Shown in pieces: positions 4,251 through 18,625 of a stretch of 18,625 nt of DNA. A program made the position numbers and the translations under genes. Below the pieces are notes generated by a model, which saw only the letters and a program-made list of their open reading frames with translations, was not told the DNA's origin and searched no databases. The stretch comes from an uncultured Collinsella sp. (GTDB lineage: Bacteria > Actinomycetota > Coriobacteriia > Coriobacteriales > Coriobacteriaceae): assembly GCA_905207425.1 (NCBI GenBank), contig CAJLLB010000023.1:1-18625 (forward strand). Direction: 5' to 3'. Position 1 is the stretch's first letter. Every line of letters starts with the position of its first letter.

Positions 4251-4270
4251 GTATGAGGGGAGGTATTGAT

Positions 4271-4651
4271 ATGGATGAGAACAAGATGGGATGGCGCGAG
4301 TATGCGCGCTATGCCGAGATGTCGGTCGAGGAGCTGGCACGCGATTGCGAGGTGCAGGTGTTTCGCGCGACGGGTCCGGGCGGACAGGGCGTGAACACGA
4401 CGGACTCGGCGGTGCGCATGAAGCATGGGCCCACGGGGATTGTCGTGACGGCGCGTGAGAGCCGCAGTCAGTTTCAGAATCGCAGCTGCTGTCTGCGTAA
4501 GCTGAGGGCAGAGCTTGAGCGTCGCGGGCGTCCACCGCGCCGACGCGTAAAGACCAAGGTGCCTCAGCGATCGCGCCAGCGCAGGCTCAACGACAAGCAC
4601 TTCAACGCTATCAAAAAGGCCAACCGTCGCAAACTGGGCAGCGACGAATGA
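4271..4651 (+). CDS. Short release-factor-like protein with GGQ motif
   Basis: Encodes 126 residues consisting of little more than the catalytic domain of class I release factors. [20 protein letters not shown] contains the GGQ (residues 37-39) that hydrolyses peptidyl-tRNA on the ribosome. It is followed by [11 protein letters not shown] and then a very basic tail rich in Arg and Lys. The codon-recognition domains of RF1/RF2 are absent. The layout resembles ArfB/YaeJ, which rescues stalled ribosomes by placing its basic tail in the empty mRNA channel; ribosome rescue is therefore inferred. The ATG at 4271 follows GGGGAGG. The ORF is open upstream to 4205, but that stretch is the xpt terminator. 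It is convergent with the lipid kinase gene. Confidence 0.8.
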
Positions 4652-9377: not shown

Positions 9378-10240
9378 ATGTTCGATATGGTTTCTCGCCG
9401 CGGATTCGTTTCGCTTTCTGCTGTCGCCGCTGCCGGCCTTGGTCTTGCCGGCTGACGTCCGAGCCGGCCGGATCCGATGTCGGCTCCGCCAAGGCCTCTT
9501 CCAAGAAGGAAACCGTCGAGCTGCAGGTCTTTGCCGCTAACTCCCTCGAGAAGGCCCTGCCCGAGGTTCAGGAGCTCTACACCGACCAAACCGGCACCAC
9601 CTTTGCCGACACGCAGTTTAAGGCCTCCGGCGACCTCGTCGAGCAGATGAAGGCCGGCGCCACGGTCGACGTGCTCATCACCGCTTCCAAGGGCACCATG
9701 GATGACGCTGAGACCGCCGAGCTCGTCGACACCGACACCCGCGAGGACATGTTCGTCAACGATCTCGTGATCATTCGCGCCGAGGGCTCCGATACTAAGG
9801 TCGAGGCCATCGCCGACGTCGCGAATCTGGACGGTAAGATTGCCATCGGCGACGCCAAGACCGTCCCCGCCGGCAAGTACGCCAACCAGGCGCTGGCTTC
9901 CGTGGGCCTCTATACCGGTACCGAGGGCGACGACGGCGAGTACGCGCCCGAGCTCGCCGACAAGGTAGCCCTGGCCGACAAGGTCGGCACCGCTGCGTCT
10001 TACGTCTCTACAGGCGACTGCGTGGCGGGTTTTGTCTACAGCTCCGATATCTTCCGCTACGACGGCATCGAGGAGGCCTTCGTGTGCCCCGAGGACTCGC
10101 ACAAGCCCATCGTGTATCCCGGCGCTGTCGCCGATAGCTCCGAGCATGCCGACGAGGCCAAGGCGTTCATCGACTTCTGCCTGACCAACAAGAAAGCCCA
10201 GAAGATTTGGGCCAAGTACGGCTTTGAGCTTTCCGAGTAG
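9378..10240 (+). pseudogene. modA: Molybdate ABC transporter substrate-binding protein, one-base frameshift
   Basis: The product is the extracytoplasmic molybdate-binding lipoprotein of the ModABC importer. The ATG at 9378 has GAAAGGG upstream and starts MFDMVSRRGFVSLSAV, a twin-arginine-like lipoprotein signal ending LAG. The next codon is TGA at 9453. Adding one base after 9454 restores a Cys codon, giving lipobox LAGC and then TSEPAGSDVG. The frame that follows runs uninterrupted to 10240 with ModA features: LQVFAANSLEKALPEVQELY, FKASGDLVEQM, DVLITASKGTMDD, IAIGDAKTVPAGKYA, and YSSDIF. So the gene is complete except for a single missing base. A true inactivating mutation or a sequence error are both possible; the rest is under no visible decay, which favours error or a very recent loss. 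Confidence 0.88.
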
Positions 10241-13176: not shown

Positions 13177-13343
13177 GCAGGTATGTTCACGGCTCCGGGA
13201 GAGACGACGAACAATTAAATAATCGACCGCAAAGCAGGTTCCCTAAAATTCCGGGTTTAGGCGCGGCTGGGTTTTCGCCACCCACCGTGCAGCAATACCG
13301 TAGCTATTCAATTTTGGTTCGAGAGGGGAACCGTCATGGCTGA
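13173..13343 (+). CDS. Possible 56-residue small ORF overlapping the next gene's start
   Basis: The ATG at 13173 overlaps the upstream leader ORF's stop and has GGAG six bases before it. The frame runs 56 codons and stops at 13343, eight bases past the ATG of the double-cubane gene at 13336. The peptide (starting MSRYVHGSGRDDEQ) has no recognised domain, and its codon use (for example TTA and AAA) is unlike that of neighbouring genes. It runs through a region that folds well as RNA. It may be translated to unfold that RNA, or may be chance. Confidence 0.2.
   Translation: MSRYVHGSGRDDEQLNNRPQSRFPKIPGLGAAGFSPPTVQQYRSYSILVREGNRHG
13237..13335 (+). promoter_or_regulatory. Structured leader with mutually exclusive pairings at the Shine-Dalgarno
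   Basis: Pairings seen: P1 GGTTCCC (13237-13243) with GGGAACC (13326-13332); P2 AAAATT (13245-13250) with AATTTT (13310-13315); and P3, a ten-pair hairpin of GCGCGG plus TGGG (13261-13271) with CCCA plus CCGTGC (13281-13290), with one bulged C. The strand GAACC (13328-13332) can instead pair locally with GGTTC (13316-13320), placing the GAGAGGG Shine-Dalgarno in the loop. P1 hides part of that Shine-Dalgarno and the local hairpin exposes it. This is the layout of a riboswitch expression platform. No known class is recognised. Confidence 0.45.
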
Positions 13344-14619
13344 AGAATTCGATTTCCATCCGATGTGGGAGAGCCTCGGCATGAATCTTGCCGACCACGA
13401 CATGCTTCTGGGCGCCGTGGGTCAGATGTACGGCGATATGTTTCTGATGCAGCACAATCGCCCCAAGTCCACGTCCTACCTGGACTTTGTGGCCACCAAC
13501 ATCCATAGCGGCCGTATTAAGGAGATGCTCGACAAGAAGGAGGCCGGCGAGGCCACCAAGATCGTCGGCTCGTTCTGCGTGTACGTGCCCGAGGAGATCG
13601 TGCTTGCCTGTGACGGCATTCCCGTGGGCCTGTGCTCGGGTGCCGATTGGGCAACCGATAAGGTCGAGGAGCACCTGCCGCGCAACACCTGCCCGCTCAT
13701 CAAGAGCTTTGCCGGCTTTAAGCTGGGCGAGGTCTGCCCCTACATTGAGTCGAGTGACCTGGTGGTAGGCGAGAACACCTGCGACGGTAAGAAGAAAGCC
13801 TACGAGTTCTTTGCCACGCAAAAGAACATGTACGTCATGGATATTCCCAACGTGCACGACGAGTCGACGCTCGTGACCTGGAAGGCCGAGGTCAAGAAGC
13901 TCGCCGCCAAGATCGAGGACGAGTGCGGCGTCAAGATTACGCCCGAGGGCCTGAAGGCTGCCATCCACGCCGTCAATGAGAAGCGCCGCGCCCTGCAGCG
14001 CCTCGCTGCGACCCGCGCTGCCGACCCTGCGCCCATCAGCGGTCTCGACAGCCTGCTGACCGTTCAGGCCGCCTTTATGGACGACACACCGCGTCTGACC
14101 GGAGCCATCAACGATATGGCGCCTGAGTGCGAGCAGCGTGTCGAGGCCGGCGAGGGCGTGGCACCCAAGGGGACCAAGCGCATCCTGTACACCGGTACGC
14201 CCATGGCCGTGCCCAACTGGAAGCTGTTCAACCTTATCGAGAAGGCCGGCGGCGTTGTGGTAGGCGAGGAGTCCTGCACGGGCTCGCGCTACTACAAGGA
14301 CCTGGTCGACGAGTCCGGCGAGACGGTCGACGAGATGCTCGACGCCATCGCCGAGCGCCACTTTAAGATCAACTGCGCCGTCTTTACGCCCAACAATCAG
14401 CGTATGAAGGACATTGTCCAGATGGCCAAGGACCTGCATGCCGACGGTATCGTCGACGTGGCCTTGCAGTTCTGCACGCTCTACGAGATGGAGTCGTTTG
14501 CCGTGGAGAAGGCCGCCGAGGAGGCCGGCATTCCGTTTATGCACATCACGACCGACTACGCCGGCGAGGATGCAGGCCAACTGCAAACCAGGATTGAGGC
14601 TTTCTTGGAAACCATTTAG
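13336..14619 (+). CDS. Double-cubane-cluster reductase, 2-hydroxyacyl-CoA dehydratase family (copy 1)
   Basis: Encodes 427 residues of the HgdB/YjiM family. Six cysteines likely to hold iron-sulfur clusters are Cys81 (SFCVYVPEE), Cys119 (NTCPLIKSF), Cys134 (EVCPY), Cys149 ([13 protein letters not shown]), Cys314 ([10 protein letters not shown]) and Cys380 ([10 protein letters not shown]). From the family, as I recall, double-cubane proteins hold an [8Fe-9S] cluster with six cysteines and are charged with low-potential electrons by an ATP-hydrolysing activator. Such an activator is encoded two genes downstream. The substrate is unknown; a 2-hydroxyacyl-CoA dehydratase role is less likely, since no CoA-transferase or acyl-CoA genes are nearby. 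The ATG at 13336 uses GAGAGGGG, buried in the folded leader. The first ~40 residues extend beyond copy 2. Confidence 0.85.
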
Positions 14620-14634
14620 GGCTATCCGGTCCAG

Positions 14635-14736
14635 CGGCTTCCCCAGGCACCCGATCTTGCCGTTCAAACCATCGCTTGCATACCAAAGTACGCGGCGCTC
14701 CTCTTTCACGGCAACCTCGGGCACCTGGGAAAGCCG
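14635..14736 (+). promoter_or_regulatory. Long imperfect hairpin between the two double-cubane genes
   Basis: A 102-base RNA hairpin fills most of the 154-base gap. Successive arms are CGGCTT/AAGCCG (14635-14640/14731-14736), CCCAGG/CCTGGG (14642-14647/14724-14729), CCCGA/TCGGG (14650-14654/14717-14721), and TTGCCG/CGGCAA (14657-14662/14709-14714). They are separated by a one-base mismatch and two 2x2 internal loops. The 46-base apical part contains GCATACC. There is no T-run, so it is not a plain terminator. The Shine-Dalgarno of copy 2 lies 27 bases after it. Confidence 0.6.
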
Positions 14737-14773
14737 TTTCCTTGGTTGGTTAAAAGGTTTGTTAAGGAGTTAT

Positions 14774-15937
14774 ATGTCGGAAAATATTGAGCAGCCGTTG
14801 CCGTCCACGTTTGAGGAGTTCAACGAGCAACGCAAGGCGGCGTTTATTCGCGTCAAGGATTATAAGCAGGCGGGTAATCGCCTGGTCGGTTTTCTGTGCA
14901 GCTACACGCCGCTCGAGATTATCGATGCCGCGGGGGCTGCGAGCGTGGCGCTGTGCGGCACGTCCGACGAGGTGATTCCCGAGGCCGAGAAGGTGCTGCC
15001 GGCAAACCTGTGCCCGCTCATCAAGTCTACGTATGGTTTTGCCTATTCGCAAAAGTGCCCGTTTACGTACTTTAGCGACATGATCATCGGCGAGACCACC
15101 TGCGACGGCAAGAAGAAGATGTACGAGCTACTCAACGAGCTCAAGCGCACGCACATTCTGCATCTTCCGCAGGGTCGCGATCGCGCCTACGAGCGTGAAG
15201 GCTGGTACGAGGAGTGCCGCCTGCTCAAGGAGGAGCTCGAGGGCTTCTACGGCATCACGATTACCGACGATGACCTGCGTGCTGCCGTCCGTCGTCGCAA
15301 CCGCTTGCGTGCGGCTCAGCTCAAGATGTTTGCGCTGCAGGCCAACCAGCCGGCGGCCATGAGCGGCATCGACCTGATGAGCACTATGTTTGCCGGTACG
15401 TTCAGCTTTGATATCGAGGCCTATACGCAGCAGCTGGAGCAAAAGGTCGCCAAGCTGCGCGAGGCCTACGACGCGGGCGAGCGCCCGGTTGCGGCGGACG
15501 CCAAGCGCATTCTGATCACCGGTTGCCCGGTGGGCGGTGTGATTAACAAGATCGGCCGCACCATCGAGTCCAACGGCGGCGTGGTCGTGTGCATGGACGA
15601 CTGCTCGGGTGAGCGCACGGCGGCTATGATGATCGACCCGGACGCGCCCGACATTCTGCGCGCCATCGCCGACCGCTACCTGGATATCAACTGCTCGGTC
15701 ATGACGCCTAACGACGGCCGCATGGAGAACACGCTGGCCATGTGCGAGAAGTACCATGTCGATGGCGTGGTAGAGAGCGTGCTACAGGCCTGCCACACCT
15801 TCAACGTTGAGAGCGCGCGCATGCAGGAGGCCGTCGAGGGTGCGGGTATTCCGTATATGAAGATCGAGACCGACTACAGCAACGGTGACATGGGCCAGAT
15901 CGAGACGCGCATCGCCGCCTTCATCGAAACCCTGTAG
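14774..15937 (+). CDS. Double-cubane-cluster reductase, 2-hydroxyacyl-CoA dehydratase family (copy 2)
   Basis: Encodes 387 residues, paralogous to the preceding gene. The six candidate cluster cysteines are Cys42 (FLCSYTPLE), Cys80 (NLCPLIKS), Cys95 (QKCPFTY), Cys110 ([13 protein letters not shown]), Cys277 (DDCSGERT) and Cys340 ([10 protein letters not shown]). The first four are spaced 38, 15 and 15 residues apart, identical to copy 1, and the later gaps differ by only two or three residues. Both copies thus keep a full ligand set, so they could form a heterodimer or two separate homodimers. The ATG at 14774 follows TAAGGAG. The frame is open far upstream inside copy 1, but that is shadow. 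The activator gene follows after a 50-base gap holding a hairpin. Confidence 0.85.
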
Positions 15938-15942
15938 GACAA

Positions 15943-15973
15943 ATGCGGCAAAGGGATAGTTGCTTTGCCGCAT
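15943..15973 (+). repeat. Perfect 11-bp hairpin before the activator gene
   Basis: ATGCGGCAAAG (15943-15953) pairs perfectly with CTTTGCCGCAT (15963-15973) around a nine-base loop. No T-run follows; the activator's Shine-Dalgarno (AAGGAGG) starts just after the stem. It may act as an mRNA-stabilising or processing hairpin between copy 2 and the activator. Confidence 0.6.
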
Positions 15974-15987
15974 AGAAGGAGGATGCC

Positions 15988-16752
15988 GTGGTTGGCATTG
16001 GTATCGACATAGGCTCGACGGCCGCGAAGGCTGCAGTGGTGGAGACGGACGGCGCCATTGCGTGGACCTGCGTCATGCCGACGGGGTATTCGTCGGTCGA
16101 TGCGGCCGAGCGCTTGCGCGGCGAGCTCGCTTCAGCCGACTATGACGTGGCTGCCGACGACGTGCGCGTGATCGCGACCGGCTACGGCCGTGTCGCCGTG
16201 CCCTATGCGCACAAGGTCGTGACCGAGATCACCTGCCACGGCACCGGTGCCGTGCGCCTGTTTGGCGATCACGGCACGGTGATTGACGTGGGCGGCCAGG
16301 ACACCAAGGTCATTCAGCTTAAAAGTGGCCGCGTGGCCAAGTTCGCCATGAACGACAAGTGCGCTGCCGGTACGGGGCGCTTTTTGGAGATCATGGCCGA
16401 CCGTCTGGGTATTTCCCAACAGCAGATGGCCGACCTTGCGCGTTCCGGTGAGCCCACCAAGATCAGCAGCATGTGCACGGTGTTTGCCGAAAGCGAGGTC
16501 ATCAGCCTGATCGGTCGCGGTGAGCCGCGCGAGAACATTGCACGTGGCGTGATCGACAGCGTGGTCTCGCGCGTGGCGACCATGGCCGGGCAGGCCGCGG
16601 GCGCCCTGTACTACCTGACCGGTGGCCTGTGCGAGAACGCCTTCGTGGTGGAGCGGTTGGGCGAGCTGCTGGGGTCGCCGGTGACCACCTCGCCCCAGGC
16701 TCGCTTTGCCGGAGCGATTGGCGCGGCGATTCGCGCACAGGCGCTCAATTAA
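15988..16752 (+). CDS. ATP-dependent activator of double-cubane/2-hydroxyacyl-CoA dehydratase proteins
   Basis: Encodes 254 residues of the BadF/BadG/BcrA ATPase family (HgdC, YjiL). The ASKHA nucleotide-binding parts are IGIDIGSTAAKAA at the N-terminus, VIDVGGQDTKVI in the middle, and YLTGGLCENAFVVERL near the end. Two cysteines, Cys125 in NDKCAAGTGRFLE and Cys163 in SSMCTVFAESEVISL, match the pair through which a homodimer holds one [4Fe-4S] cluster. Known activators use ATP hydrolysis to push an electron at very low potential into the partner protein, here probably copies 1 and 2. The GTG start at 15988 has AGGAGG upstream, and moving it would remove the first strand of the ATPase. It ends 70 bases before selD. 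Confidence 0.92.
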   Translation: MVGIGIDIGSTAAKAAVVETDGAIAWTCVMPTGYSSVDAAERLRGELASADYDVAADDVRVIATGYGRVAVPYAHKVVTEITCHGTGAVRLFGDHGTVIDVGGQDTKVIQLKSGRVAKFAMNDKCAAGTGRFLEIMADRLGISQQQMADLARSGEPTKISSMCTVFAESEVISLIGRGEPRENIARGVIDSVVSRVATMAGQAAGALYYLTGGLCENAFVVERLGELLGSPVTTSPQARFAGAIGAAIRAQALN

Positions 16753-16781
16753 TGCATCCGCCGCAGGCTCGCATTCATGCG

Positions 16782-16787
16782 TATACT
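16782..16787 (+). promoter_or_regulatory. Candidate internal -10 before selD
   Basis: TATACT lies 36 bases before the selD ATG, in the short gap after the activator gene. No -35 is visible, and selD may equally be read through from the upstream operon. It is listed because a private promoter would let selD be expressed without the reductase genes. Confidence 0.25.
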
Positions 16788-16822
16788 GGGAGAAAATGAT
16801 TGACCGATGAGAGGAGGTATCG

Positions 16823-17872
16823 ATGGCTGACGATCAGATTAGGCTCACGTCCATGACGGCCGCGAGCGGTTGAGCCGCTAAGTTGGCTCCCGGAGCCCTC
16901 GCCCAGGTCCTGGGCGATTTACCCAATGTGCATAACGACAACCTGCTCGTAGGGTTCGATACCTCCGACGATGCGAGCGTCTTCCGCGTAGGGGAGAACC
17001 TGGGGCTCGTGCAGTCCATCGACTTCTTCCCACCGATGGTCGACGACCCGTTCCTCTTTGGCCAGATCGCCGCGGCCAACTCGCTGTCGGATATCTACGC
17101 CATGGGCGGGCGGCCGAGCCATGCCATGAACTTGCTGTGCATCCCGAGCTGCCTGGGCATCGAGGTCGCCGGCCAGATTCTGGCGGGCGGCGCCGACAAG
17201 TGCGTCGAGGCGGGTTGCTCCATCGCGGGCGGCCATACCATCAACGACGACGAGCCCAAGTACGGCCTGTCCGTGAGTGGTTTTGTCGCGCTCGACCGCA
17301 TGCTCGCCAACAGCGGCGCACGCGTGGGCGATGTTCTGCTGCTGACCAAGGCGATCGGCTCGGGCATTATCACCACGGCCATTAAGGGCGAGCTCATCGA
17401 GCAGGACGAGGCCGCAGCCATGTTTGACTCGATGCGCACCCTCAACGAGGCTCCGATTCGTCTGGCCGAGGGACTTGAGCTTCACGGCTGCACCGACATT
17501 ACGGGCTTTGGTCTGATCGGGCATGCGTGCGAGATGGCCGAGGGCTCGGGCGTGCAAATCGAGCTCGCGTCGGGGGCGGTGCCGCTCTTTGACCAGGTGC
17601 TCGACATGGCGCGTCTGGGCATTATCCCCGCGGGCTCCTACCGCAACCAGGACTTCTTTGGCCCGCGTGTAGCTGCCGACGATGACCTGGAGCCGGGCAT
17701 GCTGGATGCGCTGTACGATCCGCAGACTTCGGGCGGTTTGCTTATTGCGGCGCCCGCGGCGGATGCGGATGAGCTTGCGCGTCGTTTACATGCCGAGGGG
17801 CGCGTTGCCGCTACGATCGGCCGCGTGTGCGAGCCGGTGCCGGGCGGTCCTGCCGTTCGCGTTGTGCATTAA
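16823..17872 (+). CDS. selD: Selenide, water dikinase, selenocysteine-containing
   Basis: Encodes 349 residues if the in-frame TGA at 16871-16873 is read as selenocysteine. SelD makes selenophosphate from selenide and ATP, the selenium donor for tRNA-Sec and other selenium cofactors. The ATG at 16823 has GAGGAGG upstream and starts MADDQIRLTSMTAASG, then UGA, then AAKLAPGALAQVL. This puts Sec at residue 17 and Lys at 20, the same places as the catalytic Cys17 and Lys20 of E. coli SelD. Downstream: DDASVFRV, QSIDFFPPMVDDPFLFGQIAAANSLSD, MGGRPSHAMN, IAGGHTINDDEPKYGLSVSG, and DITGFGLIGHACEMA, all SelD features. A stop-aware gene caller would truncate it to begin near 16883. A GGTCC-loop hairpin downstream of the TGA fits a bacterial SECIS. 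yedF follows. Confidence 0.93.
16874..16917 (+). promoter_or_regulatory. Candidate SECIS element in selD
   Basis: Downstream of the UGA, TCGCCCAG (16899-16906) and CTGGGCGA (16910-16917) form a perfect eight-pair stem. Read with a slightly larger loop, the apex is GGTCC, very like the GGUCU apex of the E. coli fdhF element recognised by SelB. The loop starts about 33 bases after the UGA, within the range tolerated in bacteria as I recall. A nearer small hairpin, GGCTC/GAGCC at 16885-16897, is an alternative. Confidence 0.65.
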
Positions 17873-17888
17873 GGAAAACCGTTTATGC

Positions 17889-17918
17889 GACCGCCTACTG
17901 TTCTGGGCGGTCCCTTTT
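17889..17918 (+). terminator. Weak terminator or attenuator between selD and yedF
   Basis: GACCGCC (17889-17895) pairs with GGCGGTC (17906-17912) around a ten-base loop. A short CCTTTT follows. The T-run is short, so partial read-through into yedF is likely. Confidence 0.4.
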
Positions 17919-17931
17919 GAAAGGAAAAACT

Positions 17932-18558
17932 ATGTCTACCAAAATTGAAGTCAATGCCATGGGCGATGCCTGCCCGCTGCCCGTCGTCAAGACGCTCAAA
18001 GCCCTGAAGCAGCTCGATGGCGAGGGCACAGTCGTGACCTCGGTCGATAACGAGACCGCCGTCAAGAACATCTCCAAGATGGCGCAGGAGAAGGGCTGCA
18101 CGGCCTTGGTCGAGAAGGTTTCTGACGCCGAGTGGCACGTGACCGTGGCGACCTCTGGCGCCGTTGCCGTGGCCGATCCCGAGCAGGATGGCGCTGCCTT
18201 CTGTGATGCCAGCGCCGGCAAGGGCAAGCTCGTCATTTCCGTCTACACCGACTGCATGGGCCGTGGCGACGACGAGCTGGGCCACAAGCTCATGAAGGCG
18301 TTTATCTTTGCCGTGACGCAGCAGGAGGAACTGCCCGCGACCATGCTGTTCTACAACGGCGGTGCCAAGCTCACCGTCGAGGGTTCGCCGGTGCTCGACG
18401 ACCTGAAGGGCCTGGCGGAGCAGGGTGTCGAGATTCTCACCTGCGGCACCTGCCTGGACCACTATGGCATTAAAGACCAGCTCGCGGTGGGCGAGGTCAC
18501 CAACATGTACGTGATCGTGGAGAAGATGGAGCAGGCCGTGCGCGTCGTGCGCCCGTAG
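17932..18558 (+). CDS. yedF: Sulfurtransferase-like selenium metabolism protein YedF
   Basis: Encodes 208 residues in two domains. The N-terminal TusA-like domain (about 1-75) has the ACPLPVVKTLKAL motif with reactive Cys14, which in this family carries persulfide or, as proposed, selenium. The C-terminal DsrE-like domain (about 95-208) has LVISVYTDCMGRGDDELGHKLMKAFIFAV, LFYNGGAKL and the signature TCGTCLDHYGI with Cys171 and Cys174. This two-domain form is known as a companion of SelD and is thought to deliver selenium, though its chemistry is not settled. The ATG at 17932 follows AAAGGA. It lies 59 bases after selD and 19 bases before the next gene, so the three probably form one transcript. 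Confidence 0.92.
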   Translation: MSTKIEVNAMGDACPLPVVKTLKALKQLDGEGTVVTSVDNETAVKNISKMAQEKGCTALVEKVSDAEWHVTVATSGAVAVADPEQDGAAFCDASAGKGKLVISVYTDCMGRGDDELGHKLMKAFIFAVTQQEELPATMLFYNGGAKLTVEGSPVLDDLKGLAEQGVEILTCGTCLDHYGIKDQLAVGEVTNMYVIVEKMEQAVRVVRP

Positions 18559-18577
18559 CGTATTGGTTGGAGTTGCC

Positions 18578-18625
18578 ATGAGGGAGAAGCGCCCGGCGCT
18601 TGTCATCACGTTTCCCACCACGGCG
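18578..18625 (+). CDS. Start of a probable DUF3343 (putative Se/S carrier) protein, cut by window end
   Basis: Only 16 codons are visible, reading MREKRPALVITFPTTA, with GGAG upstream of the ATG and 19 bases after yedF. The pattern of a hydrophobic strand followed by TFPTTA matches the start of DUF3343 proteins, which commonly follow yedF in selenium gene clusters and are regarded as putative selenium/sulfur carriers. With so little sequence, this rests on context as much as on the residues themselves. Confidence 0.5.
   Translation, partial: MREKRPALVITFPTTA

Follow-up and report, generated by a model that had tools for sequence, protein, structure and literature searches.

Double-cubane cluster proteins encoded beside selD in an uncultured Collinsella sp.: a probable ATP-driven step in selenium supply

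The first 18,625 nucleotides of contig CAJLLB010000023.1 (assembly GCA_905207425.1, uncultured Collinsella sp.), here referred to as the window, end in a run of genes that raises a question: why are two predicted double-cubane cluster proteins (DCCPs; DCCP-A and DCCP-B) and their ATPase activator encoded directly upstream of the selenium genes selD, yedF and DUF3343? The answer favoured in this study is that the locus is probably an operon for selenium supply that includes an ATP-driven low-potential reductase of its own, which would make selenide for SelD. An earlier note on this DNA, made from the sequence alone, had listed two double-cubane proteins, an activator, selD, yedF and a probable DUF3343 gene on one strand with short gaps, and profile scores and coordinates confirm this set (Table 1). 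From position 13336 to the window end, DCCP-A, DCCP-B, activase, selD, yedF and the start of the DUF3343 gene follow each other with intergenic gaps of 154, 50 (between DCCP-B and the start of the activase gene), 70, 59 and 19 bases, and Shine-Dalgarno-like motifs are present.

The evidence for a tie to selenium comes in the first place from genome-level co-occurrence, counted as matches above curated cut-offs. Among 58 Coriobacteriales genomes around the nearest genome (G001), DCCP occurs in 27 and SelD in 33; SelD is present in all 27 DCCP-positive genomes and in 6 of the 31 DCCP-negative ones (Fisher p 4.7e-11, a value that, like the others given here, overstates the evidence, the genomes being related and kinship being ignored). 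Within the genus, SelD is found in 22/22 genomes with DCCP and 0/13 without, and YedF in the same 22. The 239 Bacillota genomes (the phylum of the Lachnospiraceae genome G099), of which 79 carry DCCP and 164 carry SelD, give 79/79 versus 85/160 (p 4.5e-17). As a specificity control, the HGD-D fold family was taken as PF06050 matches with E up to 1e-15, present in 129 of the 239 Bacillota genomes. SelD occurs in 33 of the 50 genomes that have an HGD-D protein but no DCCP, versus 79/79 with DCCP (p 1.4e-8); the former share is close to the 52/110 seen without any HGD-D protein. Within Bacillota, the SelD rule is therefore specific to the double-cubane proteins and does not extend to the whole fold family. 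Fourteen control genomes show DCCP only in Escherichia coli and M. jannaschii, and SelD only in the same two. In a mixed set of 50 genomes, author-chosen from those of 80 diverse DCCP loci and partly overlapping the other sets, 48 are SelD-positive.

SelA, found in 159 of the 239 Bacillota genomes, helps to place DCCP within selenium metabolism. Five of these genomes have SelD without SelA, and two of the five (G099 and G259) are DCCP-positive; the other 77 of the 79 DCCP-positive genomes carry SelA. Both G099 and G259 encode SelD, YedF, DUF3343, activase, a pyridoxal phosphate (PLP) enzyme and DCCP within a single stretch whose gene order differs between the two (L293, L307). DCCP therefore tracks selenium activation and supply in general, beyond selenocysteine decoding alone, as seen in these two genomes and in two further loci (L173 and L180, described below).

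The association extends to gene neighbourhoods. In Bacillota, 79 DCCP loci, one per genome and with about 7 kb per side where the contig allowed, were compared with 37 HGD-D control loci. A marker search placed DUF3343 at 17, YedF at 13, SelD at 5, SelB at 2 and SelA at 1 of the DCCP loci, so that any of the five occurs at 28/79 DCCP loci and at 0/37 controls (p 3.9e-6); chance adjacency was rejected on this difference. The activase, as would be expected, is common near both (59/79 and 32/37). A second sample consisted of 80 diverse DCCP loci, the 80 out of 528 that most resemble the Carboxydothermus hydrogenoformans protein, which are mostly of the long type and come from many phyla. Strict markers (SelD, SelA, SelB, full YedF and YqeB, by author-set bit-score limits) stand in the available flank of 18/80, and DUF3343 is present in 30/80, within about 400 bp of the DCCP gene in 26/80. 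The earlier note had asked for a survey, on the view that adjacency limited to very close relatives would speak against a functional tie; adjacency in many phyla and in Bacillota shows no such limit.

Clustering of neighbouring open reading frames (ORFs) without prior choice of families gave, for DCCP versus control loci, 17 versus 1 for the PLP enzyme (p 0.011), 16 versus 0 for YedF (p 0.0025) and 12 versus 0 for DUF3343 (p 0.009). These three alone reach a single-family p below 0.05; apart from LysR and YedE, which are borderline, the other tested families are not significant, among them a URO-D/B12 methyltransferase fusion (6 versus 0, p 0.17). Clusters named by eye include an ABC ATPase (21 versus 7), a P-type ATPase and an ABC permease (7 versus 1 each), a small-molecule methyltransferase (6 versus 0), a Cys/Met-type PLP enzyme (5 versus 0) and two more families (5 versus 0). 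Family names were checked on one representative per cluster: YedF scores 222.4 bits with TIGR03527 (cut-off 110), YedE 522.6 with TIGR04112 (200) and LysR 275.8 with NF040786 (250), DUF3343 matches PF11823, and the methyltransferase is a fusion of URO-D and B12-binding domains. The LysR family, whose representative belongs to the selenium-associated regulator NF040786, is found at L310:5122-6012 and at eight other DCCP loci. The methyltransferase fusion stands near DCCP at L263:8112-9809 and at five other loci, which is consistent with the mlp clusters described in the available text of PMC10418091.

Among relatives, the gene set of the window is kept more strictly than its order. L171 (the nearest genome), L178 and L183 share the order DCCP-A, DCCP-B, activase, SelD, YedF, DUF3343 and an EF2568-type PLP enzyme, the last scoring 415.1 bits with TIGR01977 in L171 (cut-off 377) and falling below the cut-off for the selenocysteine lyase SclA. 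DCCP-A and DCCP-B lie about 5.6 kb apart in L184. L172 and L179, from the same genus, lack DCCP-A; their DCCP-B is accompanied, in another order, by activase, YedF, PLP enzyme, DUF3343 and a Cys-type SelD. In L173 and L180 (G047 and G055) YqeB/YqeC flank DCCP-B, activator, YedF and DUF3343, with modABC and mo genes present in L173 as well. Comparison of these arrangements thus shows a set that stays together while its order and companions vary, and the six-gene module recurs in differing orders in L171, L172, L293 and L307. A gene labelled YedE_172 is a formate transporter and was left out of the counts.

Profile scores were read against the curated cut-offs of NCBIfam/TIGR families, 10 window ORFs being compared with NCBIfam and five further ORFs with Pfam alone. 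The score for DCCP-B was taken on an over-long listed ORF from 14414; its start is assigned to the ATG at 14774, which has GGAG upstream. The activator has five matches in the PDB, all within the BCR/HGD/DCCP group and all either activators or subunits that resemble them, including 9gai_D, 1hux_A, 7yyl_E and 4eht_A. For the truncated DUF3343 gene, the 16 residues inside the window equal the start of an 83-aa protein of the nearest genome (L171:11430-11681), which itself matches PF11823 at 66.4 bits. Scans of the window gave two promoter sites versus 1.9 in shuffled sequence, so that promoter and terminator signals are not above chance, no Rfam match at gathering scores and, with ARAGORN, no tRNA.

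Table 1. Features of the double-cubane and selenium gene module, in window coordinates
Feature	Position	Strand	Assignment and remarks
DCCP-A, predicted long-type double-cubane cluster protein, 427 aa	13336..14619	+	NF040772, 485.1 bits (cut-off 350); eight family cysteines
DCCP-B, predicted short-type double-cubane cluster protein, 387 aa	14774..15937	+	NF040772, 494.1 bits (cut-off 350); eight family cysteines
ATPase activator (acyl-CoA dehydratase activase / DCCP reductase type), GTG start	15988..16752	+	TIGR00241, 227.7 bits (cut-off 125.4); PF01869
selD, selenide water dikinase, reading through an in-frame TGA	16823..17872	+	TIGR00476, 339.8 bits (cut-off 125)
TGA codon of selD, predicted selenocysteine at residue 17, GUAAK motif	16871..16873	+	in frame in selD; MADDQIRLTSMTAASG*AAKLAPG
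Hairpin with GUC apical loop, SECIS-like (SECIS, selenocysteine insertion sequence)	16899..16917	+	z -2.70 on a 53-nt stretch, -0.25 on a 45-nt stretch
yedF, TusA + DsrE-like selenium protein	17932..18558	+	TIGR03527, 213.1 bits (cut-off 110); PF01206, PF02635
DUF3343 (Se_S_carrier) gene, first 16 codons, truncated at the window end	18578..18625	+	residues match the start of L171:11430-11681

The assignment of DCCP-A and DCCP-B as double-cubane cluster proteins, a call from sequence, draws on their NF040772 scores, their cysteine set and their activator partner. Eight family columns are all cysteine in both; across 189 DCCP rows seven of these columns are cysteine in 189/189 and one in 188/189 (the cluster ligands among the eight are not structure-assigned), and several of the eight are missing from most of 56 non-DCCP HGD-D control rows. 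Over the stretch aligned to the solved DCCP 6ENO, DCCP-A is 49% and DCCP-B 39% identical; DCCP-B scores 271 bits against the solved DCCP (6ENO/7YYL) and is 87% identical to the DCCP-B of Paratractidigestivibacter faecalis. Benzoyl-CoA reductases and 2-hydroxyacyl-CoA dehydratases, which share the fold family and the kind of activator with DCCPs, were considered as alternatives and rejected: DCCP-A reaches 103.1 bits with HadC (cut-off 700), 81.4 with BzdN (453.8) and 63.6 with BcrC (421.15), and DCCP-B 87.8, 74.8 and 64.2 bits, respectively, against the same cut-offs.

A tree built by a quick method separates long DCCPs (about 425 aa; 6ENO and the window's A) from short ones (about 385 aa; E. 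coli YjiM and the window's B). DCCP-A falls in a clade with support 100* together with actinobacterial long DCCPs (L136, L138, L163), and DCCP-B clusters with YjiM among the short proteins, sharing a long branch with L172, L173, L179 and L180. Seventeen Bacillota genomes have more than one DCCP, and in seven of them two DCCPs lie no more than 2 kb apart; judged by open-frame lengths, all seven close pairs combine one long (at least 424 aa) and one short (at most 402 aa) frame. The A-B pair of the window is therefore a recurrent design, and a mixed A-B dimer is possible.

The selD gene holds a further link to selenium, overlooked in the first reading of the window. Its start is placed at the ATG at 16823, with AGGAGG upstream and 60 bases 5' of the listed ORF start, and the reading frame then meets the TGA codon of Table 1. 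The same codon and surroundings occur in selD of L178 and L183, and among the 33 SelD matches above cut-off in the 58 genomes around the nearest genome, 23 have one TGA and 10 have none. The window's SelD is thus predicted to be a selenoprotein, and because of this TGA it probably relies on the very selenium that it activates. The hairpin downstream of the codon, whose loop agrees with the rule for bacterial SECIS elements, is only suggestive of a SECIS, given the two z values in Table 1.

For the selenide supply favoured here, a sequence of steps can be proposed. Zero-valent, perselenide-like selenium would be carried on YedF, DUF3343 and the EF2568-type PLP enzyme, the last being encoded downstream in relatives. 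Electrons from ferredoxin or flavodoxin would pass to the activase, and ATP hydrolysis by this activator would drive them into the [8Fe-9S] clusters of DCCP-A and DCCP-B, which are guessed to act as one complex. The DCCPs would then make selenide from a selenium species that is poorly reducible by ordinary donors, Se(0) in elemental or carrier-bound form being the most likely one, and SelD would convert selenide to selenophosphate for selenocysteine (SelD's own included) or, in relatives, for a Se-containing molybdenum cofactor. The gene identities, the cysteine set, the adjacency and the genome-level co-occurrence, which within HGD-D is particular to DCCP, are observations; the placement of DCCP upstream of SelD and the carrier roles of YedF, DUF3343 and the PLP enzyme are inferred.

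The exact substrate, Se(0) giving selenide, is a guess to which only limited confidence is attached, with C-Se cleavage as the second choice of reaction. It was chosen because the partners YedF, DUF3343 and the PLP enzyme resemble proteins that carry sulfur or selenium in the zero-valent state, and because the step from Se(0) to selenide requires a very low potential. By our own estimate, the Se(0)/selenide couple lies at about -0.7 V at pH 7. The accessible text of PMC9820544 states that elemental selenium reduction requires strong reductants, and that of PMC11971306 that one ATP per electron on reduced ferredoxin makes about -1 V attainable. Extended to the DCCP family as a whole, the proposal would be that the physiological role of these proteins is to use ATP to turn zero-valent or carbon-bound selenium into selenide for SelD; this is tentative and somewhat doubtful. 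The strong link to SelD in Bacillota and Coriobacteriales, particular to this family, and the curated selenium genes among its neighbours make the function of DCCP directly testable. If the proposal is true, an energy-consuming reductive step would be added to selenium assimilation, selenide formation by DCCP would be a chalcogen reduction that NADH and ferredoxin do not easily reach, and the step would be relevant to gut bacteria. Selenium use by gut bacteria may affect the host.

Several other readings of the same data have to be weighed against selenide generation from carrier-bound selenium. The DCCP pair may instead cleave C-Se bonds reductively in organic selenium compounds such as methylselenides, selenosugars or selenoamino acids, releasing selenide for SelD; this is the strongest of the rivals, although rather unlikely. 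Such a cleavage would be well matched by strong reductants, and the URO-D/B12 methyltransferase fusion is encoded near 6 of the 79 Bacillota DCCP genes and none of the 37 controls, a weak signal, while a 2023 preprint (PMC10418091) ties, in its available text, clusters of such methyltransferases, many with a dicubane cluster protein, to methyl-selenide metabolism. However, the methyltransferase family is confined to those 6 loci, and the commoner partners, the presumed selenium carriers and the PLP enzyme, fit zero-valent selenium at least equally. An improbable explanation is ecological coincidence, in which strict anaerobes carry both SelD and DCCP and adjacency results from shared regulation or island transfer, with no common pathway. 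Both proteins are commoner in anaerobes, and neither Thermodesulfobacteriota nor Chloroflexota shows a significant association, with exceptions in both. Yet the other HGD-D proteins of the same Bacillota genomes do not follow the SelD rule, selenium markers stand at DCCP loci and at none of the control loci, and the six-gene module is found in different orders.

Co-selection with SelD would also be expected if DCCP or a partner were a consumer, needing selenium for its activity, and the near one-way rule from DCCP to SelD fits this equally well; but no listed DCCP match above the cut-off has an in-frame stop, so that DCCP is not a selenoprotein, and the enriched neighbours are genes of supply and regulation; this reading is very improbable. 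Least probable of all is that the DCCP pair matures or reduces a Se-containing molybdenum cofactor, an option that the earlier note had raised. It is in line with the YqeC/YqeB genes that flank the module in L173 and L180, with the molybdenum genes beside the window operon and with the two DCCP-positive genomes that have SelD and lack SelA, but YqeB is near 0/79 Bacillota DCCP genes, and SelA is encoded in 77 of these genomes. Thus, of the reductive selenium step proposed in that note, the part that has a double-cubane system working with selenium is upheld by co-occurrence and adjacency, whereas the part specific to the Se-Mo cofactor is not. The module nevertheless seems to serve the Se-Mo trait too in L173 and L180, given the YqeB/YqeC genes around DCCP-B there.

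A number of observations weigh against selenide supply as the role of the locus, in addition to the kinship of the genomes mentioned above. SelD is present in 65/69 DCCP-positive and 98/109 DCCP-negative genomes of Thermodesulfobacteriota (178 genomes, the phylum of G081; Fisher p 0.41) and in 10/11 and 169/210 of Chloroflexota (221 genomes, the phylum of G086; p 0.69). Since SelD is so common there (163/178 and 179/221), these two sets have little power. No SelD match was found in four of the 69 DCCP-positive Thermodesulfobacteriota genomes (G379, G426, G504, G514), one of the 11 of Chloroflexota (G522) and two of the 50 in the mixed set (G082, G084). Conversely, 85 of the 164 SelD-positive Bacillota genomes are without DCCP, so that DCCP is dispensable for selenium use. 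SelD lies within 10 kb of DCCP in at least 6/79 Bacillota and at least 7/69 Thermodesulfobacteriota genomes, a low share; pooled, 13/144 exceeds an author-set chance rate of 1.5% (p 3.3e-7). Some of the enriched neighbours of DCCP are not selenium genes, and LysR (9 versus 0) and YedE (8 versus 0) are borderline in the blind clustering (p about 0.055 each). The long branch of DCCP-B means that its chemistry may be different. The in vitro substrates of DCCP named in the accessible text of PMC11971306 are acetylene, hydrazine and azide, and in Clostridioides difficile exposed to metronidazole a YjiM-named protein goes up and YedF down according to the available data of PMC6262375, contrary to simple co-regulation. 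Finally, we know of no biochemistry that connects DCCP to a selenium compound.

Compared with known systems, the locus resembles the DCCP and reductase of C. hydrogenoformans (6ENO, 7YYL) in its NF040772 match, eight cysteines and adjoining ATPase activator, and differs in pairing a long with a short DCCP and in being joined to selD-yedF-DUF3343. The available part of a 2025 structural paper (PMC11971306) describes DCCPs as homodimers and calls the biological function of the archetypal ones unknown. In E. coli K-12, yjiM-yjiL followed by ytiA (DUF3343/Se_S_carrier; L186:4669-6851) forms a compact version of the module in a laboratory strain that is easy to work with. Like the window, it has a short-type DCCP (531.4 bits), an activator and DUF3343 in a row; unlike the window, it has no further selenium gene within the 16 kb shown and no long DCCP partner. 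As far as the accessible texts go, a table of genes in the anaerobic regulon of FNR includes yjiML (PMC3688515), and one regulator data set (PMC9068703) places yjiM next to genes of formate hydrogenlyase, all changing in the same direction. In C. maritimus, a LysR-like gene belongs to the transcriptional unit of DCCP and reductase, and both of the latter fall under CO (PMC7306483, available text). Benzoyl-CoA reductases and 2-hydroxyacyl-CoA dehydratases differ from the window proteins by the unmet cut-offs and missing cysteines given above. Maturation loci of Se-dependent molybdenum hydroxylases (YqeB/YqeC) share SelD, YedF, DUF3343, the EF2568-type enzyme and DCCP-B in the case of L173; unlike these, the window has no yqeB or yqeC among the genes examined (10 ORFs against NCBIfam, the five further ORFs against Pfam only).

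In the literature found, as far as its accessible parts show, a link between DCCP and selenium is hinted at only in a table of Lin 2015 (PMC5322559) and in the 2023 mlp preprint. The STRING table of the former ties activase and HGD-D genes of the Slackia heliotrinireducens selenium clusters to YedF, YedE, DUF3343 and LysR_Se, a likeness to the window locus, but in the available text the HGD-D genes are outside the four chosen candidates and are not named double-cubane. The accessible text of a 2022 review of prokaryotic selenium metabolism (PMC9312934) does not mention 'cubane' or 'dehydratase', and the main text of a paper on the M. maripaludis selenium regulon (PMC11097638), as available, has no mention of 'hydroxyglutaryl', 'activase', 'cubane' or 'DUF3343'. 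No published test or quantification of the link was found; Haft and Gwadz 2023 and Jeoung and Dobbek 2018 may say more.

Twelve predicted genes precede the module in the window, including moeA, mogA, modA, modB and modC. The molybdenum neighbourhood pointed out in the earlier note is thus present, but these genes may merely serve a molybdenum selenoenzyme. Downstream of the operon, the nearest genome encodes a formate dehydrogenase H whose reading frame contains a TGA (NCART*HGPTV; L171:3131-5353), with hydrogenase- and ferredoxin-type genes nearby as judged by eye, and this selenoenzyme may explain the mod/moe neighbourhood. The modA gene of the window (9378-10240) seems to be broken, as its signal stretch (ATG at 9378) is interrupted by a TGA at 9453, close to the lipobox, and its body is in a different frame; close modA homologues occur in L178 and L183. 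Elsewhere in the window, positions 4253-4651 encode a short release-factor-like protein, for which the matches to the RF2, PrfH and ArfB models are all below the cut-off, and a putative redox protein of the C_GCAxxG_C_C family (PF09719) is encoded on the reverse strand at the window start (42-560).

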